This document shows, piece by piece, positions 2,787-33,981 of a stretch of DNA of 45,200 nt. The notes under the pieces were generated by a model, which saw nothing but the letters and a program-made list of their open reading frames with translations, was not told the DNA's origin and did not search any database. Source of the stretch: Candidatus Calescibacterium nevadense OTU 1 (lineage in GTDB: Bacteria; Calescibacteriota; Calescibacteriia; Calescibacteriales; Calescibacteriaceae); contig AWOA01000013.1 in assembly GCA_000494225.1 (NCBI GenBank), forward strand, positions 24,685-69,884. Reading direction: 5' to 3'. Position 1 is the first letter of the stretch. Each line of letters begins with the position of its first letter. The translations under genes were made by a program, and so were the position numbers.

Positions 2787-3857
2787 TTATCTTATTGAAC
2801 TTTCCTTGAAGAAATTCCATATCAGCTGGTTTGCGTCTAAATCTCTGCTTGTTTTTCCAATAATACTTTCTGGAAGATATTGCAAACCTCCCGGCCATGT
2901 GTGCCCTCCACCCTCAATAGTATATAAAATTACCTTTACTCCATCTTTACATTGATTATATATTTCTTTTTTAACCCTTGTTCCATCAGATGTCTCTTTA
3001 TCTTGCTCCCAGCCCATTTGAGGATATAATTTACAACCATTAATTTTTGTCCAGAAACTTATAGTATCTTGAGCAGATAAAACCTTTCCCCTTTTCCTTC
3101 CCCCAGCTTCTACATATCCTCCATTATATGGAACCAACGGGTCATCTGTGCCCATAATAATCAGAAGTGATACAGGTTTTTGAGGAGTGCACGAAGAGGT
3201 TATATCTTCTGGCATAAGACCAGCAACAGGTGCAACAGCTGTAATTTTTTGTGAAAGTTCACAAGCTAACCGAAAAGACATCATAGCTCCGTTTGAAATA
3301 CCCGTAACGAAAATCCTCTTCAAGTCAATATTGAAATCCAACGCGAGGTGATCAATTAGAGAAGATATAAAACCAACGTCGTCAATATTTTCTTTGTGAG
3401 CTATGGACCAATTCTCCATACCTTTTCTCCCATCATTCCAGTGCCTACTATACGCTTCAGGATAAACAACAATAAATCCTTCCATTTCAGCAAGGGAATT
3501 AAAACCTTCATTGGTTAATTCAATCATACGATCCGGTGTCCCCCCTCCTCCATGAAGAACAAAAAGAAGTGGCATATTTTTATTACTGTCAAATGACTTC
3601 GGAACGTAAATAATGTAAGATCTTTCTAATCCTCCGAATGTGATAGAATCAGAAGTAAGCCCACCAACAAATTTTCCTCCCTCATCTACAATTTCATCAG
3701 AATCATTCGTTTGAGCAATTTTTTTCTTACAACCGATTATAAAAAAATGAGAAAATATGATAAGTAATAATACAAAAGTAAAGAAGGGATAATAAAAATT
3801 TTTACTTCCGTCATCGCGTATGGACAACTTCTCCGTCCATTTTGTCCCTTTGAACAT
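2787..3857 (-). CDS. lipoprotein PHB-depolymerase/feruloyl-esterase-type hydrolase
   Basis: An alpha/beta-hydrolase of the esterase PHB depolymerase family (LpqC/feruloyl-esterase-like), predicted to cleave carboxylic esters outside the cytoplasm. Visible landmarks in order are a hydrophobic segment ending in a lipobox-like FIIGC, the oxyanion-hole run LHGGGG, the nucleophile elbow GISNGAMMS (Ser), the acid site MGTDDPLVPY (Asp) and the histidine site EGGGHTWPGG. Start is uncertain: the ATG at 3857 gives 356 residues, and 3878 or 3947 are alternatives. All candidates overlap the end of the preceding gene (by 47 bp with the start used here), implying translational coupling. It is the last gene of the leftward set that contains two FAD oxidoreductases, so its substrate may be an ester made or used by that pathway. 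Confidence 0.85.
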   Translation of the reverse strand: MFKGTKWTEKLSIRDDGSKNFYYPFFTFVLLLIIFSHFFIIGCKKKIAQTNDSDEIVDEGGKFVGGLTSDSITFGGLERSYIIYVPKSFDSNKNMPLLFVLHGGGGTPDRMIELTNEGFNSLAEMEGFIVVYPEAYSRHWNDGRKGMENWSIAHKENIDDVGFISSLIDHLALDFNIDLKRIFVTGISNGAMMSFRLACELSQKITAVAPVAGLMPEDITSSCTPQKPVSLLIIMGTDDPLVPYNGGYVEAGGRKRGKVLSAQDTISFWTKINGCKLYPQMGWEQDKETSDGTRVKKEIYNQCKDGVKVILYTIEGGGHTWPGGLQYLPESIIGKTSRDLDANQLIWNFFKESSIR

Positions 3858-4710
3858 CTCCTCTATTATAAACTTCATAAAGCTTCTTTCTCGTAAAGAC
3901 AAATTTGGCAATAAAATGAAGAAGGTAAAAAAGTAAGGAAAAAGCATATTTTATTTTCTTTGGATGCAGTAAGAAATAAACAAACTCATAAGATAACCCA
4001 AGTTTCAACATTGAAACAAAATCTTCCGGCCCCATAGTCATAGTATAAATCCATACAACAGGAGGTAATGTCTTTCCGTGCAGGACCAAAGTATCTCCTT
4101 TATCTTCAGGTTTTTCTTCACCGCATGGAATAACGATATGACTTCTCCTTCCCAACCCTTTTGACCAAAAAATCATTCCTCCCTGATAAATATTTTGCTT
4201 TGGTACAGGTTTTTCAAGACTTATTTTTTGATTTGAATTCGTTTCTTCTTTTCCCTCATCATCAGGTGATATATCGCTTCCATTTTGGGAAGTGTCATCT
4301 AATTTACTTTCCGATCGTGCACCCCTATATTCACCCTCAATAATCTTTGCAATTACTTCATCATATACAAATTCAGATTTCTTGCGAGAAAATATTTTCA
4401 AGATTTTTACAATAAGTACTTTTGGAGTTATGATGAAAAGAGTTTTTGCAAGGTTCAAAATCACAAATTTTACTAACTTGAACCCCAAATTTCTTTTGAG
4501 GAACAAAATAATAACTTTATTTTGAGCCATAAACCTTATAAACCTTACCATATCTTCCGGGAAAAGGAAGATCTTATAGGGCCAATTTACTTTTCCTTCG
4601 ACAATCCTACCACGAACGAGGACATAATCTGGTGAGACAGAAACACTCTCTGCCTTATCAAGATAGAAAGGCAATATGAGTTTTCCTAAACCTTTTGACC
4701 AAAGCCTCAT
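3811..4710 (-). CDS. internally duplicated membrane-associated protein of unknown family
   Basis: Not recognised. The 299-residue product is a tandem duplication of one module. WSKGLG occurs at residues 4-9 and 182-187, and PED[M/F]V at 51-55 and 228-232, a constant offset of about 177. Each module has a short beta-rich part with a K/RG-x-GK-type element, the PED motif, then one or two hydrophobic helices ending in basic residues. A Ser/Asp/Gln-rich linker (residues ~132-176) separates them. This suggests a membrane-anchored two-domain protein. The start at 4710 has an excellent GGAGGTGA site. It sits 83 bp after the FAD oxidoreductase gene and its 3' end overlaps the esterase gene, so it is part of the flavoenzyme set. 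Confidence 0.8.
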   Translation of the reverse strand: MRLWSKGLGKLILPFYLDKAESVSVSPDYVLVRGRIVEGKVNWPYKIFLFPEDMVRFIRFMAQNKVIILFLKRNLGFKLVKFVILNLAKTLFIITPKVLIVKILKIFSRKKSEFVYDEVIAKIIEGEYRGARSESKLDDTSQNGSDISPDDEGKEETNSNQKISLEKPVPKQNIYQGGMIFWSKGLGRRSHIVIPCGEEKPEDKGDTLVLHGKTLPPVVWIYTMTMGPEDFVSMLKLGLSYEFVYFLLHPKKIKYAFSLLFYLLHFIAKFVFTRKKLYEVYNRGDVQRDKMDGEVVHTR

Positions 4711-4793
4711 TTTAATTCACCTCCTTGATAAAAATTCATCAAACTATACCATCAATACACCGCATTGTATATATAAATATCCATCATAAATAC

Positions 4794-6419
4794 TCATAAA
4801 TAGCCTCTTTTTTTTGCCTCCTTTACAGTCGGATGCTCTTCCCATTTGAAATCAACTCCGAGGTCTTCACATACTACTTTTGCACAATTGTAGCCAGGTC
4901 CCAAAATTACCATACCTCCGGGATGAACCGAAGCTCCGGCGACATAAAAACCCTCAATAGGAGTTCTGTAAGACGAACAATCAGGAGAAGGTCTGTTATA
5001 TCCCATCTGCAAAGAAGTATAAGCTCCATGCTTTATTGATCCTCTTTTCATCGTAAGAGTGTGATTTTCTATATCAAGAGGAGACCAGCTTAATTCAACT
5101 ATGATTGAAGATTCAGCTATATCTGGAGAGTAAGAAGCCCAAAACTCAAAGGATTTCTTTGCAACCTCTTTTTTGAGCTCATATGTCCAGGTAGTTTTTG
5201 TCCCATTCGTTTTTACTTCGTATGGTGCCCACATCTCCCACCTCAAAAGATGATGCTGAGCATAAGGAACGTGACTTGGAACCAAAAGTGGATCAAAAAT
5301 GGAAAGACAGCTTCCGTGTCCTTTGATCTGAATTTTCCCTTCTTCGCAATCCTTTATATGAGATAAAACATCATCTTCATTTTCATATCCCATAACAACA
5401 TTTAAAAACTCAGAAACTCCATCCGGATAACCTGGATACAAAGGATTTTTACCTGCAATTCCGCGATGTGAAATAAATAAAGATAACCTCTCCCATTCCC
5501 ATCTTTCCGCAGAATCTTTGAGATCTTCCATAAATTCCTCTTCATAATCACTCAGGAGTTCAAGGAAGTTTTGTTCTGGGTTCAGAGTGCTGATCACAAC
5601 TTTTGCTTTTATTTCCGTTCCATCTTCAAGAATAACTCCACGGACCCGCGAACCCTCAAATATAACTTTTTTGACTTGCGAAGCAGTTATAACATGCCCA
5701 CCAGAGAACTCAACAACTCTCCTCAAAGAAGAAGCAAGATGATGCGTTCCCCCTTTTACCAAAGCAGAATTCAAAACTCGCAGAACATAGATGGGAACAA
5801 GGAAACCTATGACCTCATCCGGTTCAAGTCCGAACATACAATTTATGTAAAGGAGAGCTCCTCTGATGCGTGAATTTTTAAATCCATAATGGTCTATAAC
5901 TTCAAGAGGAGTCATTTCAGAGATCTCGGCTATTTTTCTTCCAAGTTCATCTGATTTTTGAAGTTTCTCCGTCTGCTCTACTGGATCAAGAGGTGGAAGA
6001 TATGTAGCTGGGAACAAGAATTTTTCAAACATTTCCTCAAACTCACTCCACATTTTTTTGAATTTCTCTGCATCTTCTGATGAGAACTGAGATATAGATT
6101 CAGCCGATTTTTGTGGATCTGTAAATAGCATTAAAGCTTTTTTATCTTTAAACAAAAAAGCCATTTGTTTTTCCGGTCTTATGAATTTTACCCCCCAGTC
6201 TTCAAGACCGAGGTCTTTGTAAGGTGGCATAAGCTCCGCAAGGAGCATATATGTTGCGTGATGATTGAGTTTAAAACCACATATTTCCTGCGTCACAAGT
6301 CCTCCACCAGTTTCAGGAAGTCTCTCTATAACTGCGGTTTTTAGACCCGCCTTTTGTAAATAAGCTGCTGCCGTAAGCCCATTTGGCCCAGCCCCAATAA
6401 CTACCACATCATATTCCAT
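4794..6419 (-). CDS. phytoene-desaturase-like FAD oxidoreductase (copy A)
   Basis: A 541-residue flavoprotein of the NAD(P)/FAD-dependent, CrtI/phytoene desaturase-like superfamily, which oxidises, reduces or isomerises C-C bonds in hydrophobic substrates. The N-terminus has the Rossmann motif GAGPNG (residues 9-14), then the ERLPETGGG segment that contacts FAD. The C-terminus has the second FAD-binding stretch [20 protein letters not shown]. Most similar in the window to copy D (12712-14382): both carry RGSIKHG-Y, QMGY-RPS and CSS-RTPI before the C-terminal FAD motif. The start at 6419 has GGAGGTGA 7 bases upstream, preceded by a polypurine leader. It is the third gene of the leftward set. 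Substrate unknown; a carotenoid role is not supported by any neighbouring phytoene synthase. Confidence 0.88.
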
Positions 6420-6424
6420 AACCT

Positions 6425-6515
6425 TTCACCTCCTTCTTTCCTTCTTCTTTCCTTTCTTTTTATTCCTTCTTTTCTTTTTTTTATCTTTTTATCTCCTATT
6501 TTTTATTTCTATCTA
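6425..6515 (-). other. polypurine leader upstream of FAD oxidoreductase A
   Basis: Read on the minus strand, the ~90 bases before the copy-A ribosome site are almost only A and G, broken by a few T/C. No reading frame with a start is evident. It could be an unstructured translational enhancer or an mRNA binding site, or a low-complexity expansion. A similar tract precedes the paralogous copy D. Confidence 0.6.
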
Positions 6516-6579
6516 CCATTTGGTAGAAAATTTTCTCTATTTTTATTTTAATAATTATTTCTACTTTTTCAACAAAAAA

Positions 6580-8226
6580 TCATACTTTTTTGAGCTCTGG
6601 AAGTTTTCTCAAAAAGTACTCATAAGGTTTCCACCTCCACCACTCTTGCTTTTGTTTTATATTCAGGTCTTCCGCAACACATGTAGCTGCAACATAACCA
6701 CTTCCAAGATGAGTCAGAGAAGCAGGCCATATTCCATTTGAGAAATAAAGTCCTTGAATTTTAGAACGAGGAGGAATTCTTCCAGTATACCACTGAGGAC
6801 CTGAAACATCTCCTCCTAACTCATGTCCATAAATAGCAGATGGATTTCTCCTCCAATTATCAATAGGAGTAAAGAACATACTATCGACAAGATTTGTCTT
6901 GAAACCAGAAATTAACCTGTCCAAAAGCTCTATATGCCCTTGATGAATTTTTCCGACGAACTCTCTATCATCCCATCTTTCTTTTCCTCCGTACCTTCTG
7001 AGATTTATAGGGTATTCCATCTCAAATACAAGCACATGATAACCTAACTTACTTCTTGATGGATCCACTGCCGATAGGTTATACATTTCTGCAATATCTC
7101 CGATAACATCCATAACTTCTTCATTTTTCATTTTTTGCACAGAAATTTTCGCATGCTCCCAAGAATCGTAAGCTCTGAGGGGGAAAGGAACTTTTGATAT
7201 ATCTTTATTCCAAGATTCAGATTTCCATCTTATATTTCCTTTTATAAGAAAGTAAGAAGTAAATGCACAATGACCAGTCATATCCCAATCTTTCATCTTC
7301 TCAAAAAGTTCAGGATCTTCCCTTTTGAGCAAATCTTGATCTATTATCTCCAAGGATATAGGAGGGCTCGTATGCATTACAACTATATCTGATTCAAACT
7401 CCTTCTGGGTATATGGAGTGTTTTCATCAAGAAACACCCTAAAACCTCCTCCCTCTTTTTTTTCTACTTTTTTTACTCCCGCATTAAGAAGTAAAGTTCC
7501 CCCGTGATATTTAAAGCATCTTACAAGCGAATGAGCAAAAGTATGCATACCACCGCGAGGTACTCCAATCATAATAGTGAAAGCAAGAGCAAGCATGACC
7601 GCACCCTCACCTTTTTCAGCCGGGTCTCCAAAAACTGCTATATCCGCCGCACCAAAAGCAGCAGTTTTTATCCATTCACTCTCATAAAGTAGGTCAAGCA
7701 TCTCAAATGCGTTCATAGTTTTAAAGTCATAAGGAGTAAATCCAAAGTATTTTGATAGATCCCACAAGAAATCCTCTTTCTCTTCTTCGGCAGGGGAAAA
7801 TACAGCTTCTTTCAGGATATCAGGGATATTTGGAGCTATGCGAGATGTTATTTCAAGAAAAGTTTTTCCATCTTTTTCAGAAAATTTAGAAATTGCCTCC
7901 GCGGCTTTGCTCGGTATAGCATACCAGACAAGGTTCTTATCTTCCCATACTGTTCCTGCGGGAGCTGTTGCGAATATGAGGTCAAATCCGAATTTATCAA
8001 GTTCAAGGTCTCCCCAGACTGGGCTCATAGGTAAAAAGCATACACCTGCGTGCGTATCTACCGGTATTCCTCCACCGAAAATATCTTCCGTTAAAGCGAA
8101 AGGAGCGATTTCATTTCTCTTTTCCAGAACAAGGGTTTTGAGACCTGATTTTTGGAGATATGAAGCAGCTGTTATTCCATTTATTCCTGCACCTACAACT
8201 ATGACATCATATTTTTTGTTCATCAT
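6580..8226 (-). CDS. phytoene-desaturase-like FAD oxidoreductase (copy B)
   Basis: A 548-residue FAD-dependent oxidoreductase of the CrtI-like superfamily. The N-terminal dinucleotide motif is GAGING (residues 12-17). A mid-protein GGMHTFAHSLVRC segment (substrate/FAD domain boundary) is shared with copies C and E. The C-terminal FAD-proximal stretch is LYFSNGIWPASLTHLGSGY, followed by AEDLNIKQ and a Trp-rich tail (EWWRWKPYEYF). The PGG motif seen in copies A, C and D is absent here, as in copy E, so copies B and E may differ in cofactor or substrate geometry. No ribosome site is visible at the 8226 ATG, although the gene probably follows the lipoprotein gene 151 bp upstream in the same set; it may have its own promoter. 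Confidence 0.87.
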   Translation of the reverse strand: MMNKKYDVIVVGAGINGITAASYLQKSGLKTLVLEKRNEIAPFALTEDIFGGGIPVDTHAGVCFLPMSPVWGDLELDKFGFDLIFATAPAGTVWEDKNLVWYAIPSKAAEAISKFSEKDGKTFLEITSRIAPNIPDILKEAVFSPAEEEKEDFLWDLSKYFGFTPYDFKTMNAFEMLDLLYESEWIKTAAFGAADIAVFGDPAEKGEGAVMLALAFTIMIGVPRGGMHTFAHSLVRCFKYHGGTLLLNAGVKKVEKKEGGGFRVFLDENTPYTQKEFESDIVVMHTSPPISLEIIDQDLLKREDPELFEKMKDWDMTGHCAFTSYFLIKGNIRWKSESWNKDISKVPFPLRAYDSWEHAKISVQKMKNEEVMDVIGDIAEMYNLSAVDPSRSKLGYHVLVFEMEYPINLRRYGGKERWDDREFVGKIHQGHIELLDRLISGFKTNLVDSMFFTPIDNWRRNPSAIYGHELGGDVSGPQWYTGRIPPRSKIQGLYFSNGIWPASLTHLGSGYVAATCVAEDLNIKQKQEWWRWKPYEYFLRKLPELKKV

Positions 8227-8326
8227 AATATAAAGTATTAATGAAAACTTTATACTTTGTGTAAAAAACGAAAATTTTTCATAAAAATATGAATTTATAT
8301 TTTACTGAAAGGAATTTCTATATAAA

Positions 8327-8354
8327 ATGATTTCCTACTTATGATTTCCTACTT
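8327..8354. repeat. perfect 14-bp tandem duplication
   Basis: ATGATTTCCTACTT is present twice head to tail (8327-8340, 8341-8354) in the spacer between the lipoprotein gene and FAD oxidoreductase B. It belongs to a series of two-copy tandem duplications in this window. Confidence 0.9.
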
Positions 8355-8377
8355 ACAAATTTTTCCCAAAATTCGGC

Positions 8378-9868
8378 TTACATGTTTCCAACTATTAGAA
8401 TTTTCCCAAATAATCCTATATATATATTATTTTTATCATCAAGATTTAAGGGAGCATACATACTGTTGTAATCAAATCCCTCTCCTATAAATTCTCTCCA
8501 TAAAACTTTTCCAGTATTCAAATCAATAGCGGTAAGATACCACTTATCTATCCTATCTTCTTTTTTGAGCTCGTAAACATAAGCTGATTGAGATTTCCCA
8601 GACACAAGAGGAACATTATTCGGAGCAAATATATCTTTATTTACCCACAAAAGCTTTACCTTCTCATTCCCATAACTGCCTTTTATTTCATAACAAGCGA
8701 CACCAGAACCTTCTGGATTATTATTATCAACGATAAATTTCCCACCAAAATAAGCTAAAGTATTTTCAGTTTGAGATTCCGGATCATAAGAAAAAGGTTC
8801 AGGATTATCTATTTCAACTGGACTTCCATCTTCTGTTCTTAAAACTATAATTTTCATAGGTATAGAACCATCTGCGAACCCAATATATTCTTCGTTATCT
8901 CCCATGATAGTTGGAGTAGTTCCGGACCCAGCAAGAAATCTTACCCTTTTGAGAAGATTAACAAGCACACAAGAATATGGAGACGATTCTCCCCGGCACT
9001 CTATTTCGCTAGGGGGAGGACCAGGATCATAAGAGTAGCTCCAAATGCTCCTAAAGTTCTTAGAAGAGTTATCAAATCTTATCTTGTAAAGTCTTTTGTG
9101 AGTTATGATATATAAGTTGTCTTTTCTATCAATGGCTATGGAATTTTGTATAGCCTCTTCTCTAAACTGGTGGTAATAAATATTCACTTTACTCCTGTCA
9201 AAAATTTGAATGATTCCTAACTTAGCGCCAGGAATATTTATCTTCAAAAAATCTCCCTCTTTTACGTATTCAAATCCCAACGTTACGAACACTATATCCA
9301 TCCAACCTGTTGGTCTATAAAGTGGCATAAGAGCAAGGATTGTTTCATCTTTAGAAAAACCATCCGACATTTCTGCGAGATTGAATTCCATATCCTTTTC
9401 AAACTTGCCTCCAATTTCACACAATCTATATATGGAAACATCTACGGAAGTCCATATACAGTCCTCGTGGTCTATAAAGCTGTATATTCCACCAAATACC
9501 CCCGTTGCTCCGGAAAAAGACAAGGAAAACTCAGCAATAAGATTCATACCTTTATCAAATTTTTTGAATTCATGCTTTCTTTCCGTAGCATTAGCGGCTC
9601 CAAAAAGTATATTTCCTTTTGAATCAAACAGTATCCATCCTGGGCCTTTGTGGTCAAAAAGCTTTACTTTCAATGGAGGATTTGGACCGGCAAACTCTAC
9701 GCCTGCTTGCTGAGATAGGTTTGCATGTATAATCGGCCAAGGACTTTGAGCCAGTCTTGGGTGCTCATGATATTTTTTCCCCAATTCGTCTTTTTTTTCC
9801 TTGCAAGAATAAATCAAAAACAAAAGCAACGCTCCCGGAATTATCTTTTGTATTTCTACCCACTTCAT
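8378..9868 (-). CDS. lipoprotein with PQQ-type beta-propeller-like repeats
   Basis: A 496-residue exported lipoprotein. The signal peptide MKWVEIQKIIPGALLLFLIYSC ends in the lipobox LIYSC. The mature part begins with SPWPIIHANLSQQ, resembling the WPMFxHDxxHTG opening of PQQ-like beta-propeller proteins, and contains recurrent blade-like pieces (FDSKGNILFGAA, IDRKDNLYIITHKRLYKI, LDDKNNIYIGLFGKILIV). The start at 9868 is chosen because GGAGGT lies 8 bases upstream; a TTG at 9883 overlaps that site and is less likely. It is the first gene of the leftward set, facing copy C across the control region. A scaffold, sensor or binding role at the outer or inner membrane is possible. The repeat-fold assignment is moderate; catalytic residues are not apparent. 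Confidence 0.75.
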   Translation of the reverse strand: MKWVEIQKIIPGALLLFLIYSCKEKKDELGKKYHEHPRLAQSPWPIIHANLSQQAGVEFAGPNPPLKVKLFDHKGPGWILFDSKGNILFGAANATERKHEFKKFDKGMNLIAEFSLSFSGATGVFGGIYSFIDHEDCIWTSVDVSIYRLCEIGGKFEKDMEFNLAEMSDGFSKDETILALMPLYRPTGWMDIVFVTLGFEYVKEGDFLKINIPGAKLGIIQIFDRSKVNIYYHQFREEAIQNSIAIDRKDNLYIITHKRLYKIRFDNSSKNFRSIWSYSYDPGPPPSEIECRGESSPYSCVLVNLLKRVRFLAGSGTTPTIMGDNEEYIGFADGSIPMKIIVLRTEDGSPVEIDNPEPFSYDPESQTENTLAYFGGKFIVDNNNPEGSGVACYEIKGSYGNEKVKLLWVNKDIFAPNNVPLVSGKSQSAYVYELKKEDRIDKWYLTAIDLNTGKVLWREFIGEGFDYNSMYAPLNLDDKNNIYIGLFGKILIVGNM

Positions 9869-10310
9869 TTTTCTGACCTCCAAGGTTTATCTTTTCATTT
9901 TCTTGGAATTTATTTTCCTTCCATTGTCTATCTTTGCTTTCAATTATTTTTAGTATTTGTTATTTGATTGAAATTTTTATGAAATTTCTGATTAGCGAAC
10001 TTCTCCCGATAATTTCAACCATGAAAGCTAAATAGCAGAATCCAAAACTGATATATAATCCAAAAATCTTTAAAAATGAAAGAATGATATTTTCTTTCCT
10101 ATTTCAGTAATGCAACCAATGTAAAAGATGAGCAAAACGCATAGTTTCGTTTTTATTTATGGTTACAAAACTTGCCGAATTCAAATTACTTTGTTTTTCA
10201 AATGAAATCTCTTCACAAAAGTTTCGAAAAAACAAAAGTTATAAAAAAATTTTTAAAATTAAATTTATCTAACTTATGGTAGGTAGATTATTATTAAATT
10301 ATTTATTATC
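9869..10310. promoter_or_regulatory. 442-bp divergent intergenic control region
   Basis: This is the only spacer between the leftward set (from 9868) and the rightward set (from 10311), so promoters for both should lie here. No open frame, RNA gene or strong palindrome was found. The last ~70 bases before 10311 are extremely A/T-rich, with several TATTAT/TTAAAT-like elements immediately before the ATG and no ribosome site, consistent with a leaderless rightward transcript. The leftward start has its own GGAGGT. Specific -35/-10 boxes cannot be assigned with confidence. Confidence 0.5.
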
Positions 10311-12044
10311 ATGAGAGTAGAAAAAGAAATAAAAACTTTTTATCCATCTGAAACTTATGATGCAGTTATAATTGGAGGCGGACCAAATGGACTGGGTATT
10401 GCTGCACTCCTGGGAAAAGCCGGTCTAAAAGTGTGCATCTTGGAAGAGAGACTTCAATGCGGAGGAGGAGCAGAAAATACCGAACCCATCCCGGGTTTCA
10501 GAATAGATCCTCATGCTACATACTTTTACGCTGGAGCATCACCAACGATAGAAATTCTTGAACTGCGGAAATTCGGTTTCAGACTAAAATACTTCAAAAC
10601 TCTCGCAGGAACGGTAACATCAGATGGAAAAGCAATAATATCTGGTAGGTTCAATATCAAAAATACGATAGAATCAATCGCAAAATACTCAAAAAAAGAT
10701 GCAGAATTTACTAAAATTATGTACGAAAGCTTCGAACCATACACAAAAGATTTCCTGAGATCAATCTTCTGGACCCCACCTTACACTCCCGATATGTGGT
10801 CTGACCCAAAAGATCTTCCATGGTTCAAATTTATGAAAGAAAAAGCTCCGGGACTTTTAGCTCTCTTCCCTCCCGAAACAATTATGGAAATGTCAACATA
10901 CGAAATCCTTGATACACAGTATGAGTTTGAACCTCTGAAAGTTGTTGCGGGTCAAGGAGCATGGTACAACGGACCTTTCCCAGCATGGCGAGGTATGGGA
11001 ATCTTCGGGATAGCAACTGGTCTTCTCATGGCTTATTCTTCTTCATCTCCCCAGGGCGGTATGCATTCTTATATGCATGCACTCATAAGATGCTGTCTTC
11101 ACTACGGAGTGAAAATATATACTAACGCAAAAGTAGGTGAAATATTGGTTGAGAATGGGGAAGCAAAGGGAGTAGTATTAGCTGATGAATCATTCTACCC
11201 AGGGAAAGTTATAAGAGCAACAAAACTTGTAATATCTGCAATAGATGTGAAACAAACTTTCTTAAAACTCCTCAAAGGGAAACACATTCCAAAACCCCTT
11301 TTAGAAAAGATAAAAGATATAAACACACACGGCGGAAGCCTATTTGTCCTTCATCTTATAGTTAAAGATTTACCGAAATATAAAGGAGACGCAGAAGAAC
11401 TATTTTTCAAAGATGGAAACTATCCAACAGTTGTAGCACTTCCTGGAGATTCAAGAAGTTTTATATTAAACCAAGCAAGAGATATTTTCTCATTCAGGAC
11501 TCACCCTCAAAGCGAAGAAAGTATGCACATTATGGTATGCTGTCATGATATTTACGATGACACAAGATGCCCACCAGGATATCACGTCCTTTCGCCAATA
11601 TACATTCAGGTTCCACCTCCTGAATATCACAGAGATGGACCTGATGCTGTGAACAAAGCAAAATGGGAAATAGCAGAAGGTATGATAGAGCTTTTAAGAA
11701 AATTTGCTCCAAATATGACCGAAAAAAATATAGTTGCAAAGTTCATTAATACCCCTCTTGATAGTGAGTTTAGAAACACAGGATTAATAGGAGGAAACTG
11801 GTACGCAATAAGAGAGTGTGAGGACCAATGGTGGAGTTTCAGACCAATCCCAGAACTTGCAAGGTACAGAACTCCGATTCACAAACTCTATCTATGTCAT
11901 CAGACCTCATATCCGGGCGGGCTATGTATTCTTGCTGTTCCTTATAATCTTATGCACATCCTCATAGATGATGGGGCAATAGAAAAGCCAGAGTGGTTTA
12001 TACCATCACCGTATCACATAAGCGATGGAGAAAAAAGATTTTAA
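10311..12044 (+). CDS. phytoene-desaturase-like FAD oxidoreductase (copy C)
   Basis: A 577-residue CrtI-like FAD oxidoreductase, the longest of the five. A 16-residue leader precedes the Rossmann strand, and the FAD motif GGGPNG is at residues 22-27 followed by EERLQCGGGAE. The GGMHSYMHALIRCC segment is shared with copies B and E. The C-terminal FAD stretch reads LYLCHQTSYPGGLCILAVPY. The ATG at 10311 has no Shine-Dalgarno site and follows an A/T-only run, suggesting a leaderless first gene. It is followed after 46 bp by the SCP2-like gene. The product is predicted to act on a hydrophobic lipid or isoprenoid substrate; the actual reaction is not determinable. Confidence 0.87.
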   Translation: MRVEKEIKTFYPSETYDAVIIGGGPNGLGIAALLGKAGLKVCILEERLQCGGGAENTEPIPGFRIDPHATYFYAGASPTIEILELRKFGFRLKYFKTLAGTVTSDGKAIISGRFNIKNTIESIAKYSKKDAEFTKIMYESFEPYTKDFLRSIFWTPPYTPDMWSDPKDLPWFKFMKEKAPGLLALFPPETIMEMSTYEILDTQYEFEPLKVVAGQGAWYNGPFPAWRGMGIFGIATGLLMAYSSSSPQGGMHSYMHALIRCCLHYGVKIYTNAKVGEILVENGEAKGVVLADESFYPGKVIRATKLVISAIDVKQTFLKLLKGKHIPKPLLEKIKDINTHGGSLFVLHLIVKDLPKYKGDAEELFFKDGNYPTVVALPGDSRSFILNQARDIFSFRTHPQSEESMHIMVCCHDIYDDTRCPPGYHVLSPIYIQVPPPEYHRDGPDAVNKAKWEIAEGMIELLRKFAPNMTEKNIVAKFINTPLDSEFRNTGLIGGNWYAIRECEDQWWSFRPIPELARYRTPIHKLYLCHQTSYPGGLCILAVPYNLMHILIDDGAIEKPEWFIPSPYHISDGEKRF

Positions 12045-12090
12045 GCTTAGGTTTTTTGATTTATTATGAAAAGAAAGGAGGTTAAAACAA

Positions 12091-12504
12091 ATGTATAGGT
12101 TTCCCTCACAGGAGTGGGTAGATGAACTTGTAAAAATAGCAATATCAGACCAAGAACTCAGAGAAATCGGAAAGACTTGGACATACGGGGGAGTCATAAC
12201 TATTATGGAACCTGATGAGAAGCTTAATGAAAGTTGGAAAGCTTTCTTCCTGATAGATAAGGGAGAAGTCAAAGAGGCGAAAATAATTCAAGATGAAAAA
12301 GAATACAACACAGCTTTCATCTTTAAAACCACATATTCTGTCTGGAAAGGTATAGTCAAAGGCGAAGTAGATCCAATCCAGGCCTTCCTGAAAGGAGAAA
12401 TAAAAGTGGAGGGAAATATAGGAATTCTTATGCAGTATATGGCGTTTATAAGAAAATTCATAAATGTTTTGACCAAAGTTCCCACCCGCTTCCCGGATGA
12501 ATAA
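12091..12504 (+). CDS. SCP2 sterol-carrier-like lipid-binding protein
   Basis: A 137-residue cytoplasmic protein of the SCP2 sterol-transfer family, which binds acyl chains or other lipids in a hydrophobic tunnel. The N-terminus FPSQEWVDEL is typical of bacterial SCP2 proteins. The hallmark second half VWKGIVKGEVDPIQAFLKG followed by EIKVEGN and a Met-rich helix is intact. The start has AAAGGAGG with good spacing. Lying between two CrtI-like flavoenzyme genes, it probably carries or presents their water-insoluble substrate. Length and motifs are normal for the family; the ligand is unknown. Confidence 0.85.
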   Translation: MYRFPSQEWVDELVKIAISDQELREIGKTWTYGGVITIMEPDEKLNESWKAFFLIDKGEVKEAKIIQDEKEYNTAFIFKTTYSVWKGIVKGEVDPIQAFLKGEIKVEGNIGILMQYMAFIRKFINVLTKVPTRFPDE

Positions 12505-12711
12505 AGAAGAAAACAAGAAAGAAAAAGAAATAAAAGGAAAAATGAACTCTATCAAGAAAGAATAAAAAAGAGAAAAAGAAGGGTGGAAGAAAAAGTAAAA
12601 GAGAAAAACTAAAAGAAAGAAGAGAGAAAAATCGGAATCGGAAGAAGGTAAAGAATTTGGGGTAAAGGAGAAGAAAAAGAAAAAAATAGAAAAAAAAGGA
12701 GGAAACAAAAG
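12505..12711 (+). other. 207-bp polypurine intergenic leader
   Basis: The spacer between the SCP2-like gene and copy D is almost entirely A and G on the coding strand, with only scattered C/T, and ends in the AAGGAGG site of copy D. No conserved open frame is evident on the plus strand, and the pyrimidine strand encodes only Phe/Ser/Leu-rich noise. It may act as an unstructured ribosome-loading leader, a purine-binding-protein target, or a triplex-forming tract. The paralogous copy A has a similar shorter tract. Confidence 0.7.
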
Positions 12712-14382
12712 ATGGAAATGAAAGAATCAAAAGTTTGGATAGGATACAAACCTTCCGAAAAAGACGATGTTTTAAAAGAGTTTCCGGACGAGTATGAAAC
12801 AGATTGTATAGTAATAGGAGCTGGGCCTAATGGGCTTATAACCTCGGCGTATCTTGCAAAAGCAGGGCTAAAAGTTCTTGTATGCGAAAGAAGATATGAG
12901 ATAGGAGGAGGACTTGCAACAGAGGAAATTCTTTTTCCCGGCAACTCATCTAACGCTCACGCAATCTACCATATGATGGTAGATTATATACCTGCTATCA
13001 GAGATTTCAATTTAGAAGAGCACGGCTTGTACTGGATAAAACCATTTGTTCAATCCGCAATTATTTTTAGAGATAAAAGTTCGCTTCTGTTAGGTAAGAT
13101 GCTTCAAGACTCAAAAGATTCGGTTGCGAAGTTATCAATTGACGAAGCAGAAAGATTTGAAAAAATTGTAAGGAAATTTATAAGGTTCGTTGATGACATC
13201 CTTGCTCCCGCAACATACTACCCTCCACTATCCCCTGTTGAGTTTTACGAAAGAATTTCTTCAACAGAGGTAGGAAGAGAGTTTTTAGAAATAGCGGAAA
13301 AATCTGCAGTTGAGATAATAGACGAAAACTTCAAGAGCGAAAAAATTAAGGCTTTCTTGCTTTATCTTGTCGGAATGTGGGGGATTGATCCTGAGGAATC
13401 TGGTATGGGTTTTATGGTACCTTTGCTCGTGTGGAGATGTGGTATGCAAAAATACTACTGCTATGGTGGGTCCCATAGATTCGCAAGTGTTCTGGGAAGA
13501 GAGATAGTAAGAAACGGAAGTCTAATTATTGATAATGCAGAAGTTGATGAAATAATAATTGAAGGTCGGGAAGCAAAAGGGGTAAAACTCAAAGACGGAA
13601 GAAAAATTTTCTCAAAAATAGTTGTATCTTCTTTGCCACCACCAATAACATTCTTCAAACTAATAAATGAGCAAAAAATTCCAAAAGATATAAAAGAGGA
13701 AATAGATATTCTAAAAGAGTGGAAGTGGGATAAATGGTCTTTCTTTACTTTTCATTTCATATCACCAAAGCCCCCAGAATTCAAAACAGACGATAAATGG
13801 ATTAACAGGTCTTTTATGACAATAGCTGGTTTTGATAATTTTGAAGATGTTCTGAATTTCTTCCGAGCCTTGAGAGAAAATAAAATAACAAAAGTCGCAG
13901 GACATATAACATGTCAGAGTTTATTTGACGATACACTATCAAGAATGGGAAAATCTGTTTCATTCTTCCAGATGTGCGCTCCTTACGATTTTGATTGGAA
14001 AAACAAAAAATCCGAAATAGAAAAGGAAGTGATAAAGCTTTTGAAAGATTACCAAGATGTAGTCATTGAAGATTTTATAAGCGAGACTCCTCTGGAAATT
14101 GAAATGAGAATTGCATCTATGGTCCGCGGTTCAATAAAGCATGGAGATTACACGCCAACTCAGATGGGATATTTCAGACCTTCTGAATCTTGTTCAAGTT
14201 CAAGAACACCTATCAAAAACCTTTACCTTTGTGGAGCAAGCACATATCCCGGTGGTCTCATAATAGGAGGTCCAGGCTACATATGTGCAAACGTTATAGC
14301 AGAGGATATTGGTTTGAAAAAGTGGTGGAAAGAACCTGATTTCCTTGCAAGGCACAAAAAAACATATCTTGGAAAAAAATGA
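12712..14382 (+). CDS. phytoene-desaturase-like FAD oxidoreductase (copy D)
   Basis: A 556-residue CrtI-like FAD oxidoreductase with a 30-residue charged N-terminal extension before the Rossmann motif GAGPNG (residues 36-41) and CERRYEIGGGLA. The C-terminal FAD stretch is LYLCGASTYPGGLIIGGPGY. Clear paralogue of copy A: shared LAPATY-PPL-PVE, RGSIKHGDYTPTQMGY and CSSSRTPI. AAGGAGG lies 9 bases before the ATG. The stop codon is 18 bp before the ATG of copy E, whose ribosome site starts just after it, so D and E are co-translated. Role within the flavoenzyme set as for the other copies; the N-terminal extension is unexplained. Confidence 0.88.
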   Translation: MEMKESKVWIGYKPSEKDDVLKEFPDEYETDCIVIGAGPNGLITSAYLAKAGLKVLVCERRYEIGGGLATEEILFPGNSSNAHAIYHMMVDYIPAIRDFNLEEHGLYWIKPFVQSAIIFRDKSSLLLGKMLQDSKDSVAKLSIDEAERFEKIVRKFIRFVDDILAPATYYPPLSPVEFYERISSTEVGREFLEIAEKSAVEIIDENFKSEKIKAFLLYLVGMWGIDPEESGMGFMVPLLVWRCGMQKYYCYGGSHRFASVLGREIVRNGSLIIDNAEVDEIIIEGREAKGVKLKDGRKIFSKIVVSSLPPPITFFKLINEQKIPKDIKEEIDILKEWKWDKWSFFTFHFISPKPPEFKTDDKWINRSFMTIAGFDNFEDVLNFFRALRENKITKVAGHITCQSLFDDTLSRMGKSVSFFQMCAPYDFDWKNKKSEIEKEVIKLLKDYQDVVIEDFISETPLEIEMRIASMVRGSIKHGDYTPTQMGYFRPSESCSSSRTPIKNLYLCGASTYPGGLIIGGPGYICANVIAEDIGLKKWWKEPDFLARHKKTYLGKK

Positions 14383-14400
14383 AAGGAGGTGAAAAGAAAA

Positions 14401-16125
14401 ATGCCTGACTTTGATGTAATAGTTATAGGTGGCGGAATAAACGGACTCGCAGCTGCTGCCTATTTAGGAAAGGCAGGAGCAAAGGTTCTTGTTGTTGAAG
14501 CGAGGGGAGAATGCGGAGCTCATTGCGACACAGAAGAACTACAAGCAGGTTTTTTACATAACTTACATGCAACATGGATGATTACTGCCCTATCTCCTGC
14601 GATGGAAGACCTTGAACTTGAAAAATTCGGTCTTGAAATAGTTATGACAGACTACGCTTATGGTAAAGTCTTCAGAGATGGTAAGTGCTGTCTTATGGGA
14701 GTAAATCCACAAGACACAATAAGTAATTGGATGAAACTTTCCCCAAAAGATGCAGAGTTTATAATAAAAGCCTCCGAGGTCTTAATAGAAAGGTTTAACG
14801 ATGTTGTGGAATGGGTTCATACTTTTTTATTCACTCCGCCTTCCTTTGATAAAGTAAGAGATAATCTTGAATTTCTCAAAGAAATAAATCAGAGGCTCGG
14901 TATAAATATCTCCCCCGAAGAACTTGTAAATATAAATGGTTTTCAAGCACTTGATATATTTTTTGAGTCAGATTATATAAAAACTACGATTGCGTCCTTA
15001 TCGTGGATAGGCGCTTTCCCTCCTATACATAGAAGGATTGGTTCTTCAGGATGCTTAGGGGTAGCCGCGCTAACCGGTCCAATTTTTCCCGTTCATCAGC
15101 TCAAAGGAGGTTCTCACTCTTTAACTCACGCACTTATAAGGTGTTGCAAAGCTCATGGAGTAAAAATAATTCAGAATTGTCCTGTTTCAAAAATTCTTGT
15201 TTCAAAAGATGGAGCTTATGGGATAAAGTTAAGCTCTGACGCTCTGTTTCCCGGAGAAGAGATAACGGCAAAAAAGATAATAAGTGATTTATCGCTTGTT
15301 CCAACTTTTGAGCTCATAGATGAAGACAAAATCCCATCGGAGATGAGAACCAGAATAAAGAACTTCTGCTATGATGAGCAGGTAATATTTGGTGTACACT
15401 ACGCCTTGAAAGAAGCGCCTATATGGTTATCGGCAGAATTTGATCCCGGAATTCAAAGATGTTTTATGGGGTATATCGGTGGAGATACTCAGGATGAGAT
15501 GAAGAAGTTTGGTGTTGAGCTCATATCAGGTGTGATACCCGATGAGCTTATGGCTAACTGGTTTGTTCCAACATTGGCAGATCCATCGCAAGCGCCGGAC
15601 GGATGTCATACCGCTTTTTTGTGGCTTGATGTTCCCCCCATACCAGTAAGGTGGGGAAAAAGAAAGCTTGAATATGACTTTTCTGTGTGGGATAAGATAA
15701 AATGGGAACTTGCAGAGAAACTCACAGACTTATTTGAAATGTATGCACCTGGATTCAGAAAAAATATAATAGAAATCTTTCCATACTCACCGTTGGATGT
15801 TTGGAGGAACAACAGAAGCGCAATAAGAGGGAACTGGTGTGGAGGGGCGGTAATTCCTGAGCAATTCTTTAAAAATAGACCATTACCCGATGTTATAGTA
15901 AAAGGTGCCTCGAGGACATTTATTAACAATCTTTACCTTTCAAATTCTATACATCCCTTTGGTGCAACTTGGTTAGCATCGGGCTATCTTGCTGCTTGTG
16001 AGGTCGCAGAAGATTTAGGAATAAGAGAAAAGGATTGGTGGAAAAACAAAGCGGTAATGTGGTATATCAAAAATCTTGGCAAAATAAAAAGGAACCTTGG
16101 AGTTGCAGACAAGTGGAAAATATGA
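14401..16125 (+). CDS. phytoene-desaturase-like FAD oxidoreductase (copy E)
   Basis: A 574-residue CrtI-like FAD oxidoreductase. The motif GGGING is at residues 10-15, then VEARGECGAHCDTEE. The GGSHSLTHALIRCC segment links it to copies B and C. The C-terminal FAD stretch LYLSNSIHPFGATWLASGY lacks the PGG of A, C and D and resembles copy B, including a Trp-rich tail (EKDWWKNKAVMWYI). The ATG at 14401 is preferred because AAAGGAGGTG sits 9 bases upstream; the in-frame GTG at 14389 lies inside that site. The CDP-alcohol phosphatidyltransferase gene follows after 60 bp. Confidence 0.88.
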   Translation: MPDFDVIVIGGGINGLAAAAYLGKAGAKVLVVEARGECGAHCDTEELQAGFLHNLHATWMITALSPAMEDLELEKFGLEIVMTDYAYGKVFRDGKCCLMGVNPQDTISNWMKLSPKDAEFIIKASEVLIERFNDVVEWVHTFLFTPPSFDKVRDNLEFLKEINQRLGINISPEELVNINGFQALDIFFESDYIKTTIASLSWIGAFPPIHRRIGSSGCLGVAALTGPIFPVHQLKGGSHSLTHALIRCCKAHGVKIIQNCPVSKILVSKDGAYGIKLSSDALFPGEEITAKKIISDLSLVPTFELIDEDKIPSEMRTRIKNFCYDEQVIFGVHYALKEAPIWLSAEFDPGIQRCFMGYIGGDTQDEMKKFGVELISGVIPDELMANWFVPTLADPSQAPDGCHTAFLWLDVPPIPVRWGKRKLEYDFSVWDKIKWELAEKLTDLFEMYAPGFRKNIIEIFPYSPLDVWRNNRSAIRGNWCGGAVIPEQFFKNRPLPDVIVKGASRTFINNLYLSNSIHPFGATWLASGYLAACEVAEDLGIREKDWWKNKAVMWYIKNLGKIKRNLGVADKWKI

Positions 16126-16185
16126 GAATTTTATTAGGAAATTAAAATTTCTTCTTCTTCAAAGTAAATCTTCTGATTATAGAGG

Positions 16186-16743
16186 ATGAAAAGGGAAGAA
16201 ATTTTTCTACTTCCAAACATAATAACTTTTTTACGGTTTATTTTAACCTTCCCCTTCATTTATTTTGTTTTAGAGGAAAGATGGAAATTAGCCACCGTAA
16301 TTGGGAGCATAGCGATAATTTCTGATTTTGCAGACGGCATGCTTGCGAGGAGGTTAAAAATGACATCGGATTTCGGCAGAAAATTTGACCCAACTGTGGA
16401 TAAAATAATCCTGACATCTTTATTTCTTGTTTTTTTTATAAAAAAGATGATTCCAGAGTGGTTCGGATTTATAGTTCTTGGAAAAGACATAATTATTCCT
16501 CTGATTATCTTATTTGGAAAGTTCGGCGGAGCGGAGCTCAATTTTTCTCCAACAATATCTGGTAAAATTACTGTTGTCTCTCAATTTACATTTATTATTC
16601 TTCTTATGTCAGAAAAAGCTTTTGGTATAAGAACATTTTACGAATTTCTTACAATACCAATATCTTTTCTTTGCTTTATCTCAGTTATGAGTTATATAAT
16701 ACTTATTTCAAAACTTTTAAAACAAAAAAATCCAAACTCTTAA
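16186..16743 (+). CDS. CDP-alcohol phosphatidyltransferase (PgsA-like)
   Basis: A 185-residue inner-membrane enzyme that transfers a phosphatidyl group from a CDP-linked lipid to an alcohol, as in phosphatidylglycerophosphate synthesis. The diagnostic D-G-x2-A-R-x8-G-x3-D-x3-D motif is complete, from DGMLARRL to FDPTVD (residues ~46-68). About six hydrophobic helices are present. The N-terminal LLPNIITFLRFILTFPFIY is typical of PgsA. The true substrate (glycerol phosphate, inositol phosphate or other) cannot be told. The ATG follows AGAGG directly, too close for a functional site. Placed last in the rightward set, it may link the flavoenzyme products to polar lipids or may simply be adjacent. 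Confidence 0.85.
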   Translation: MKREEIFLLPNIITFLRFILTFPFIYFVLEERWKLATVIGSIAIISDFADGMLARRLKMTSDFGRKFDPTVDKIILTSLFLVFFIKKMIPEWFGFIVLGKDIIIPLIILFGKFGGAELNFSPTISGKITVVSQFTFIILLMSEKAFGIRTFYEFLTIPISFLCFISVMSYIILISKLLKQKNPNS

Positions 16744-30386: not shown

Positions 30387-30779
30387 GTGAATAATAATAT
30401 AGATTTCAAAACTTTACAGGAAGCTTTACGAGAAATTTTTGAATCAGACATAAAAGGTAAAGAGAAAAAAGCAGAATCACTTATATCAAAAAATCCCGTA
30501 GTATTAAAGTATATAGAAAACAAAAAGAAAATAGATGAGCTAATCTCTTGGTCGACGGGAAAAAACATAAAAATAATTCCACACATAGAAAGAGATGTTC
30601 TGCGAGTTCTGGTAGCTGAAATCTTACTTGGAGTAGATGAGAAAACTTTGATTTCTCATGCTGTAAAACTCTCAAAAAAGTACTTATCAACAAATTCTCA
30701 CAAATTTTTAGTTGCTATCTTCTACAAAATTTTAGAGAAAGTCAAAGATTTAAAACAAGAAGAAGAAAATAAAAATTAG
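30387..30779 (+). CDS. nusB: NusB-like antitermination factor
   Basis: A 130-residue all-helical protein resembling NusB, which binds boxA RNA with NusE in rRNA antitermination. The C-terminal half carries the family pattern: IDELISWSTGKNIKIIPHIE, RDVLRVLVAEILLG (cf. DR-ILR-A-YE), HAVKLSKKYLSTNSHKFL (cf. NE-VELAK-Y....FVNG). The N-terminal half is divergent and the FVNG motif is changed, so identity is moderate. A GTG start at 30387, 8 bp after hslV, implies co-expression. The 3' end overlaps the cusA stop by 4 bp on the opposite strand. Confidence 0.7.
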   Translation: MNNNIDFKTLQEALREIFESDIKGKEKKAESLISKNPVVLKYIENKKKIDELISWSTGKNIKIIPHIERDVLRVLVAEILLGVDEKTLISHAVKLSKKYLSTNSHKFLVAIFYKILEKVKDLKQEEENKN

Positions 30780-33700
30780 TTGTGCCGCTTTTTCACTTCC
30801 CTTTCCTTCAAGATGAAAAATATCGCAGGATATACTATGAGTTCTAAAATAAAGCTTGTAATAAGTCCTCCGACCATAGGAGCCGCAATTTTTTTCGCAA
30901 CATCAGCACCAGGTCCCATCCCCAACATAATAGGTAAAAGCCCAACTATATTTGTCAGAACTGTCATGGCTTTCGGTCTCAACCTCTTCACAGCACCATA
31001 AATTACAGCTTCCTGCAAATCATGTTCGGTTCTCATAATCCCTTTTTCCCTCCATCTCTCATAAGCCATATCAAGATAGAGCAACATAACAACCCCTGTT
31101 TCAGCATCAAGTCCCAAAAGAGCTATTATTCCAACCCAGACAGCAACAGATAAGTTATACCCAAGAATATGAAGCAAAATCAGAGCCCCAACAAGAGAAA
31201 ACGGAACAGCACAAAATACAATCAAAACCTTTGAAATAGATTTCAAATTTATGTAAAGAAGAAAAAAGATTACCATGATTGTAAGAGGAATGATGAACTT
31301 TAACTTTTCTCTGACCCGCAGTATGTATTCGTATTGACCCGACCATTCCCAAAAATATCCTTGCGGAACTTTGATTTTCTTTTCAAGAATTTTTTGAGCC
31401 TCTGCAACATAAGTCCCCAAATCTATTCCCTGAACATCTATATAAACCCATCCTGTGCGATAACCTTTCTCTGTCTTTATAGAAGAGGGACCTCTTACAA
31501 GTTTTATCTCCGCAACTTGCTCGATAGGTATATTCCCATATTTTGTTGGTACCAGAACTCTTTTGAGCTGAGATATATCTTCTCTGAAATCTCTTGCATA
31601 TCTTAACTGTATCGGATATCTTTCTCTACCCTCTATCGTATGAGCAATGATTTTCCCACCTATTGCAGTTTCTATTATGTTTTGTATGTCTTCTACTCTG
31701 AGCCCATATCGTGCGGCAACATCTTTTTTTATCTCAAATTCCACATAATAGCCATCTATAACCCTTTCTGAATAGACAGAACGAGTCCAAGGTAATTCCT
31801 TAAGAGAAACCTCAATCTGTTCCCCTATTTTTTCTATTTCTTTCAGGTCTTGACCAAAAATTTTTATACCAAGTGGTGTCCTTATTCCTGTGGTTATCAT
31901 ATCTATTCTGCCTTTTATTGGCATTGTCCATGCATTTACAACGCCGGAAAACTGTAAAGCTGAATCCATAGCACTTATAAGTTCTTCATATGTCCATCTC
32001 CTGCAATGCCCAAAAATCTTTTTCAGAAAAGGTTCTAAAAATTCAGGTTTATATTTTTTCTCGACTCTACATGGCCACTCTTGCTCAGGCCTTAAAATTA
32101 CTGTGGTTTCAATCATAGAAAGCGGAGCAGGATCGAGAGGTGTATCTGCTCTCCCGACTTTACCAAAAACTGTAAGAACTTCTGGGAAAGACTTTATTAT
32201 TTTGTCTTGAACTTGGAGTAAACGAGAAGCTTCACCGATTGATATTCCCGGAAAAGTTGTGGGCATATAAAGAATAGTACCCTCATTTAAAGTTGGCATG
32301 AATTCTGTTCCGAGCTTCAAAAATAACGGAATAGCTGACAAAGTTATAAGAAAAGAGAGAAAAACAACAAGATATCTCAAACGCAAAGCAAAGACCAAAA
32401 CGGGTTCATACAGTTTATGTAAAATTTTTGAAATAGGATTTTTATCTTCTGGAATAACTTTTCGAGGAGCAAAAAGAACCAAGAAAGCAGGAGTAAAGGT
32501 TATTGCGACAAAAGCACCTACGAGCATGGCAAGTGTTTTTGTTATAGCAAGCGGCTTGAATAACCTACCTTCCTGAGCTTCAAGAAACAAAACCGGTAAA
32601 AACGAAACAGTAATAACTAGTAAAGTAAAAAATATAGGTCTCCCAACAGATTTTGTAGCTTCTAAAATTAGTTCAATCTTATTTTTGTTTTTAATATTAC
32701 CTAATTCAGTTTCCTCTTCAATTTTCTTATTCACATTTTCAACTATAATTATCATGGCATCAACCAAAGTTCCTATGGCAATGGCTATACCAGCAAGTGA
32801 CATAATATTTTGTGTTATCCTGAGATAATACATAGCGATAAAAGATAAAATCACAGCAGTTGGAAGCATTATAACTATGATGAGAGCTGACCTGAAATTA
32901 AAGAGAAATAGAGCACAAATAATTGCAACTAAAATACACTCCTCAAGAATTTTCTCCAAGAGATTTTTTACTGACCTTTCTATCAAATCTGACCTATCGT
33001 AAGTTGTTACTATTTCAACTCCCCCTGGTAAAGTATTTTTGATTTCAGCTATCTTTTTCTTTACATCTTGAACAACCTTGTAAAGGTTTTCTCCAAATCT
33101 TACTGTAACTATTCCACCTACTACCTCCCCTTCACCGTCAAGTTCCGCTACTCCCCTCCTTATGTCAGGTCCCAAGGAAACATGAGCGAGATCTTTTATG
33201 AAAACAGGAATTCCATTCCTTATATCTACTGGTATATTTTCTATATCTTCTTTTGATGATATGAAACCTTTGCCCCTTATAAAATATTCCACACCACTGC
33301 TTTCGATCAACCTTCCTCCAACTTCATTGTTAGATGCTCTTACTGCGCGGATAATTTCATCCACTGTTATGTTATATGATATAAGTTTCACAGGATCAAC
33401 GATGATTTGATATTGCTTTACAAAACCTCCGACAGATTCAACTTCTGCAACTCCGGGAACGGCTCTAATTACATATTTTATATACCAATCGTTCAGAGTT
33501 CGAAGGCATGAAAGGTCGCAATTTCCAGATTTATCCACAAGAGCATACTGGAACCCCCACCCAACGCCGGTTGCGTCAGGACCTATTTTCCATCTGACAC
33601 CTTCTGGAAGGTCTACGCCTTGGAGAAACTCAAGGACGCGCGAGCGAGCCCAATAAATGTCCACTCCATCCTCAAATATAACGAAAACAAGAGCAAATCC

Positions 33701-33964
33701 AAAAAATGACATACCCCTCACAGATTTGACCCGAGGTGAAGAGATCAAGGCTGAAACAACAGGATATGTCGCCTGAAGTTCGATAGTCTCAGGAGATCTT
33801 CCATCCCATTCAAGATAAATCAGAACCTGAGTATCTGAAAGGTCAGGAATAGCATCAAGAGGAATTTTAGGAAGAGTTCTTATTCCCCAGAATATCGAAA
33901 AAAAGAATAAGATAAGAACTAAAGTTCTGTTTTTAACACACCAAGATATTATCGACTCGATCAT
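30776..33964 (-). CDS. cusA: CusA-type copper/silver RND efflux pump
   Basis: A 1062-residue inner-membrane RND transporter of the heavy-metal (HME) class that uses proton flow to drive Cu(I)/Ag(I) out through CusB and an outer-membrane channel. Twelve membrane helices are in the usual 1+5/1+5 plan. TM4 carries the proton-relay acid in GTLVDAMIIIVEN (Asp402). The three methionines of the E. coli CusA metal site are conserved: Met567 (LYMP), Met617 (PLSMIET) and Met689 (RIDMITTG), which argues for copper/silver over zinc/cobalt. A CDLSC pair at residues 149-153 is not in the E. coli protein. The start has GGGGTGA. It is the last gene of the cus operon, 17 bp after cusB. Confidence 0.95.
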   Translation of the reverse strand: MIESIISWCVKNRTLVLILFFFSIFWGIRTLPKIPLDAIPDLSDTQVLIYLEWDGRSPETIELQATYPVVSALISSPRVKSVRGMSFFGFALVFVIFEDGVDIYWARSRVLEFLQGVDLPEGVRWKIGPDATGVGWGFQYALVDKSGNCDLSCLRTLNDWYIKYVIRAVPGVAEVESVGGFVKQYQIIVDPVKLISYNITVDEIIRAVRASNNEVGGRLIESSGVEYFIRGKGFISSKEDIENIPVDIRNGIPVFIKDLAHVSLGPDIRRGVAELDGEGEVVGGIVTVRFGENLYKVVQDVKKKIAEIKNTLPGGVEIVTTYDRSDLIERSVKNLLEKILEECILVAIICALFLFNFRSALIIVIMLPTAVILSFIAMYYLRITQNIMSLAGIAIAIGTLVDAMIIIVENVNKKIEEETELGNIKNKNKIELILEATKSVGRPIFFTLLVITVSFLPVLFLEAQEGRLFKPLAITKTLAMLVGAFVAITFTPAFLVLFAPRKVIPEDKNPISKILHKLYEPVLVFALRLRYLVVFLSFLITLSAIPLFLKLGTEFMPTLNEGTILYMPTTFPGISIGEASRLLQVQDKIIKSFPEVLTVFGKVGRADTPLDPAPLSMIETTVILRPEQEWPCRVEKKYKPEFLEPFLKKIFGHCRRWTYEELISAMDSALQFSGVVNAWTMPIKGRIDMITTGIRTPLGIKIFGQDLKEIEKIGEQIEVSLKELPWTRSVYSERVIDGYYVEFEIKKDVAARYGLRVEDIQNIIETAIGGKIIAHTIEGRERYPIQLRYARDFREDISQLKRVLVPTKYGNIPIEQVAEIKLVRGPSSIKTEKGYRTGWVYIDVQGIDLGTYVAEAQKILEKKIKVPQGYFWEWSGQYEYILRVREKLKFIIPLTIMVIFFLLYINLKSISKVLIVFCAVPFSLVGALILLHILGYNLSVAVWVGIIALLGLDAETGVVMLLYLDMAYERWREKGIMRTEHDLQEAVIYGAVKRLRPKAMTVLTNIVGLLPIMLGMGPGADVAKKIAAPMVGGLITSFILELIVYPAIFFILKEREVKKRHN

Positions 33965-33981
33965 CTTTTCTCACCCCTTTT

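Follow-up and report, generated by a model that had tools for sequence, protein, structure and literature searches.

The genomic window analysed here, a stretch of 45,200 nucleotides from Candidatus Calescibacterium nevadense, probably encodes two heterodimeric enzymes of the type of the limonene dehydrogenase CtmAB, which would oxidise an allylic carbon of hydrophobic, presumably isoprenoid, substrates without O2. At the level of sequence comparison, homology, the pairing of subunit types, gene order, a histidine motif and the co-occurrence of a partner protein (W) are all found for five flavoenzymes (F1 to F5) arranged in two modules (Table 1). An earlier, sequence-only reading had taken ten genes of this region as an undescribed pathway of lipid or isoprenoid biosynthesis. 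Its view that the flavoenzymes act on hydrophobic, isoprenoid-like substrates is retained, whereas the undescribed biosynthetic pathway is not, since the nearest characterised relative is the catabolic CtmAB.

Table 1. Genes of the two modules and their immediate neighbours in the window.
Feature	Position	Strand	Basis
Lipoprotein esterase of the PHB-depolymerase type	2787..3947	-	NF050058, 176 bits (cut-off 150)
W, fused tandem CtmC/CtmD-type protein, module 1	3811..4710	-	Profile matches to CtmC and CtmD
F2, CtmB-type (type A) oxidoreductase, predicted covalent flavin, module 1	4794..6419	-	Identity, CtmB clade, motif
F1, CtmA-type (type B) oxidoreductase, predicted covalent flavin, module 1	6580..8226	-	Orthologues, CtmA clade, motif
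Lipoprotein of no known family	8378..9883	-	Pfam and NCBIfam without match
F3, third paralogous oxidoreductase, predicted covalent flavin, module 2	10311..12044	+	Orthologues, motif, own clade
SCP2-domain lipid carrier, module 2	12091..12504	+	PF02036, E=1e-8; synteny
F4, CtmB-type (type A) subunit, module 2	12712..14382	+	Identity to CtmB, tree, motif
F5, CtmA-type (type B) subunit, module 2	14389..16125	+	Identity to CtmA, tree, motif
PgsA-like CDP-alcohol phosphatidyltransferase	16186..16743	+	PF01066 (CDP-OH_P_transf), E=2e-25

All ten open reading frames proposed by that reading are present and do diverge as two sets, with 427 bp between the sets and short intergenic gaps within each of them, F5 starting 6 bp downstream of the end of F4. 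A sigma-70-like promoter was sought in the 9800-10400 region and none was found. The flavoenzymes, of 541-578 amino acids, belong to the FAD-Rossmann/amino-oxidase superfamily and share roughly 25-42% pairwise identity. Family models also bore out the SCP2 carrier (35.7 bits with PF02036, above the cut-off of 21.3), the lipoprotein esterase and the CDP-alcohol phosphatidyltransferase, although the product of the latter scored 73.5 bits with TIGR00560, under the cut-off of 109. The protein described as duplicated does carry an internal duplication, with WSKGLG in both halves, and matched no Pfam or NCBIfam family; as for the supposed beta-propeller-like lipoprotein, the lipoprotein part stands, and family models gave no match. 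The window further contains an RND heavy-metal-type efflux system at 30776-36679, made up of an AcrB-family pump, a HlyD_D23/HMBD adaptor and an outer-membrane protein, and the GC content of the source genome is about 35%.

The limonene dehydrogenase of Castellaniella defragrans 65Phen consists of two phytoene-dehydrogenase-like flavoenzymes of COG1233 that share 27% identity and are encoded in a cluster of the order ctmABCDEFG (PMC4109377). The enzyme hydroxylates an allylic methyl group of limonene with water and without O2. Growth on limonene needs ctmE, and ctmC and ctmD were hypothetical genes without known relatives as of 2014 (PMC4109377). A search of Burkholderiales genomes provided a locus (L222) that was taken as the ctm locus of this organism, as the published sizes of ctmA (1698 b), ctmB (1650 b) and ctmE (324 b) matched exactly, together with the gene order; the neighbours on both sides are also the published ones, and its two flavoenzymes are 26.8% identical. 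CtmB from this locus has 39% identity with F2 and 38% with F4, and CtmA has 34% with F5 and 29% with F1. In a maximum-likelihood tree, CtmB falls into the F2/F4 clade (support 100/100) and CtmA into the F1/F5 clade (support 100/99), where its exact position is unsure because of long branches, and F3 forms a clade of its own with one orthologue from a distant bacterium. F1 and F5 are classed as CtmA-type, F2 and F4 as CtmB-type and F3 as a third related type, and the tandem pair of both subunit types is present twice, as F1+F2 and F5+F4. Moreover, since W corresponds to a fused pair of CtmC and CtmD homologues, the order F1-F2-W is that of ctmA-B-C-D. On the other hand, CtmC and CtmD, both small proteins with a WSxGLG motif, are separate in C. 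defragrans and fused here; ctmE and ctmF adjoin there, whereas neither a ctmE-type ferredoxin nor a ctmF-type reductase lies beside either module in the window; and the window additionally holds a second A/B pair, SCP2 and F3, the last without characterised counterpart. Substrate and reaction may also differ from those of CtmAB, given that identity is only 22-39%. Plasmid homologues from Sphingobium, Shinella and others, considered as further relatives, were only 25-29% identical and none was orthologous.

A second line of comparison concerns the flavin. The sterol delta-24 desaturase of Sterolibacterium denitrificans, which acts on stigmasterol, belongs to an alpha/beta family related to CtmAB and binds FMN covalently through the His of a G-F-L/R-X-N/S-T/L-H-A motif, which was described for both CtmAB subunits as well (PMC11061730). 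Compared by this description, its motif is like that of the window enzymes; its reaction is a desaturation, and the part of the description available mentions no W partner (PMC11061730). The His-Ala motif occurs in five of five window flavoenzymes, in their sister and archaeal orthologues and in CtmA and CtmB, all of which also have a second family-specific His in a GGxH motif. The two read GIPVDTHAG and GGMH in F1, GFKLNHHAT and GGTH in F2, GFRIDPHAT and GGMH in F3, and GNSSNAHAI and GGSH in F4; the motif GFLHNLHAT of F5 fits the consensus as published for covalent FMN (PMC11061730). Aligned CrtI has Gly at both positions, and a COG1233 outgroup from Chloroflexi and a planctomycete has neither His. 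On the strength of this motif, covalent flavin is predicted for the window enzymes.

The W protein of the source genome carries the WSKGLG domain twice, both times with a hydrophobic helix at the C-terminal end, and such a hydrophobic stretch is found in most copies. A profile built from W sequences of the window lineage and of archaea, with the Ctm sequences excluded, gave 50.8 bits for CtmC and 42.5 bits for CtmD, whereas the best of 1000 shuffles reached 8.3; through W, both would gain a conserved, co-occurring family. The protein is fused in the source genome and in one sister genome (G002), split into two open reading frames in two others (G001 and G003) and in the distant loci L170, L171 and L172, and single in L046 and L169, while module 2 of the window is without it. 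Its AlphaFold model is a small beta sheet with a long C-terminal helix (pLDDT 80) and, with a pTM of only 0.49, matched no PDB fold. From the predicted topology W had been suspected to be a diverged SCP2, which was rejected at a profile-profile probability of 0.1%.

W was found in 8 of 386 bacterial genomes, exactly the 8 in which a CtmA-type sequence matched at more than 640 bits when the three best candidates per genome were scored; outside the carriers of the source family, 4 of 382 bacterial genomes have it. In Thermoproteota, the profile without CtmC and CtmD detected W in one of 300 genomes, and this W-carrying genome is the only one among 398 with a CtmA-type match above 900 bits. A scan of genome contigs for the Rossmann pattern gave, among the matches listed, mostly unrelated flavoproteins. 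The distant bacterial loci L170, L171 and L172 hold F1 orthologues of 55-59% identity and L169 an F3 orthologue of 53%. A TetR-like regulator (PF00440 shown in L171), F1, F2 and two W genes follow each other in L170 and L171, which come from one family, and family models place a CaiB-type CoA-transferase, an SDR, an acyl-CoA dehydrogenase and a methylmalonyl-CoA-mutase-like gene downstream in L171. The order in L172 is F1, F2, W, W, two acyl-CoA dehydrogenases, an AMP-ligase, an enoyl-CoA hydratase and an aldehyde dehydrogenase, and in L169 it is F3, F4, W, F5, another CtmB-type gene, an aldehyde dehydrogenase, an Fe-alcohol dehydrogenase and SCP2; upstream of these lie a TRAP transporter component and an acyl-CoA ligase. 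The archaeal locus L046 (Nitrososphaerales) reads CtmB-type, W, CtmA-type, and in another locus of that genome, L121, an aldehyde dehydrogenase gene comes after a CtmA/CtmB pair. In the sister genomes of the source family, thiolase, acyl-CoA dehydrogenase or HMGL-like genes lie no more than some 9 kb from module 2. The presence of acyl-CoA dehydrogenase, CoA-ligase, CoA-transferase and aldehyde or alcohol dehydrogenase genes next to the modules of the distant carriers indicates a catabolic role, and the neighbours match the logic of Castellaniella, from hydrocarbon oxidation through alcohol and aldehyde oxidation and a CoA thioester to beta-oxidation. Other observations in these genomes are MetE-type-methyltransferase-like genes adjoining the archaeal CtmAB-like pairs of L121:2647-12348 and L047:1-4092 (the one tested had no Pfam match), a TPP-enzyme subunit gene near the pair of L121, and, in other bacteria, a second clade of tandem flavoenzyme pairs with the His motif and adjoining SCP2 (L173:8741-13030, L175:361-4667 and L176:8600-13078).

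The reading of the ten genes as one divergent, co-regulated pathway draws on their adjacency and divergence in the source genome (G000, a 2.3-Mb draft, 85% complete) and on the short gaps within each set, and comparison with the four further genomes of the family (G001 to G004, the next relatives being related at the domain level only) makes it highly improbable. Three of them, G001 to G003, have the same flavoenzymes in two separated modules, F1-F2-W and F3-[SCP2]-F4-F5, with different neighbours; F1 orthologues are 79-90% identical in all three, and F3 orthologues 77-84% in G002 and G003, of which the former keeps SCP2 and the latter lacks it. Modules 1 and 2 are next to each other only in the source genome, so that the divergent set is a matter of local adjacency, and the single ten-gene unit is rejected on the synteny of the sister genomes. 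The esterase, the lipoprotein at 8378..9883 and the CDP-alcohol phosphatidyltransferase are not beside the modules in the sister loci examined and are probably all outside the CtmAB-like system, while the association of SCP2 and W with some of the flavoenzymes, which had been anticipated, recurs in sister and distant loci. The five genomes are 82-86% complete, and single absences are consequently weak. As to other features of the sister loci, they contain flagellar and cytochrome-oxidase-like genes, which together with the GC content resembles what is published for Calescamantes (PMC4791363), and in two of the sister genomes a histone-deacetylase-family gene adjoins module 1 (L084:14040-15074, called by PF00850, and L086:4779-5846, by sequence resemblance). 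G001 shows an in-frame F3/F4 fusion without SCP2 (L088:132-1709), F3-like over residues 1-180 (80-88% in the first 100) and F4-like over 200-525, a possible assembly artefact, as it lies near a contig start.

Two further explanations concern the product. Carotenoid biosynthesis by CrtI/CrtO/CrtD-type enzymes would be in keeping with CrtO (NF045689) as the top-scoring NCBIfam model of each of the five flavoenzymes. The superfamily fold is shared with these carotenoid enzymes, and the solved structures closest to the AlphaFold model of F2 are the carotenoid desaturase 4rep (E=8.7e-25) and 4dgk. However, the CrtO scores are 75-184 bits for a cut-off of 1000, those of the CrtI family (TIGR02734) are 37-85 bits for a cut-off of 238, and the covalent-flavin His is absent from CrtI. 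The resemblance to CrtI is thus one of superfamily level, and of the five CrtI-like flavoenzymes of the sequence-only reading, five FAD superfamily members remain but not their CrtI class. Moreover, phytoene/squalene synthase (PF00494) had no match in nine genomes (G000 to G004 and four distant carriers), where positive controls matched, which agrees with the earlier judgement that an ordinary carotenoid cluster is unlikely; with no synthase detected and no family cut-off reached, carotenoid biosynthesis was rejected, its residual likelihood being minute. A less remote, though still unlikely, explanation is that the CtmAB-like enzymes make or remodel the organism's own isoprenoid or fatty lipids, giving hydroxylated or desaturated membrane lipids. 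A phytoene-desaturase homologue of Methanosarcina is reported to make hydroxyarchaeol, and in the window no catabolic genes adjoin the modules, SCP2 adjoins F3 and the CDP-alcohol transferase follows F5. Yet that transferase is not beside the modules in the sister genomes, and orthologous cassettes of distant carriers have catabolic neighbours. An own-lipid function also sits poorly with G004, of the same family, in which neither module nor any of the five flavoenzyme genes was found, and with the patchy distribution among bacteria. The proposal that the lipid is moved to the envelope is likewise unsupported.

In the preferred scheme of O2-free catabolic oxidation by CtmAB-like enzymes, the two subunits of each A/B pair (F1+F2 and F4+F5) would assemble into a heterodimer whose flavins are covalently attached. 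This heterodimer would abstract a hydride or hydrogen at an allylic carbon of some hydrophobic and probably isoprenoid compound, leading either to a water-derived hydroxylation, as in CtmAB, or to a desaturation, as in the sterol delta-24 desaturase. W and SCP2 may retain the substrate at the membrane or supply it there, and the product would then pass through alcohol and aldehyde oxidation and CoA activation into beta-oxidation. A bolder version, which we advance only tentatively, sees in the two heterodimers, F3, membrane-bound W and SCP2 a multi-flavoprotein machine that oxidises C-H bonds of long isoprenoid or sterol-like lipids independently of O2, both in a deep-branching lineage of bacteria and in an archaeon. 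W would then be an obligatory subunit family of CtmAB-like enzymes that had so far gone unrecognised.

To our knowledge, very few characterised enzymes oxidise unactivated terpenoid hydrocarbons independently of O2. The present comparison widens the range of the limonene-dehydrogenase type, which now takes in a deep-branching lineage of bacteria, four further bacterial genomes that belong to three families, and one archaeon, and it places the formerly unannotated CtmC and CtmD in a family. An arrangement in two modules, orthologous and including a third flavoprotein, becomes visible, and it can now be tested if W serves as a structural subunit and which substrates the individual modules use.
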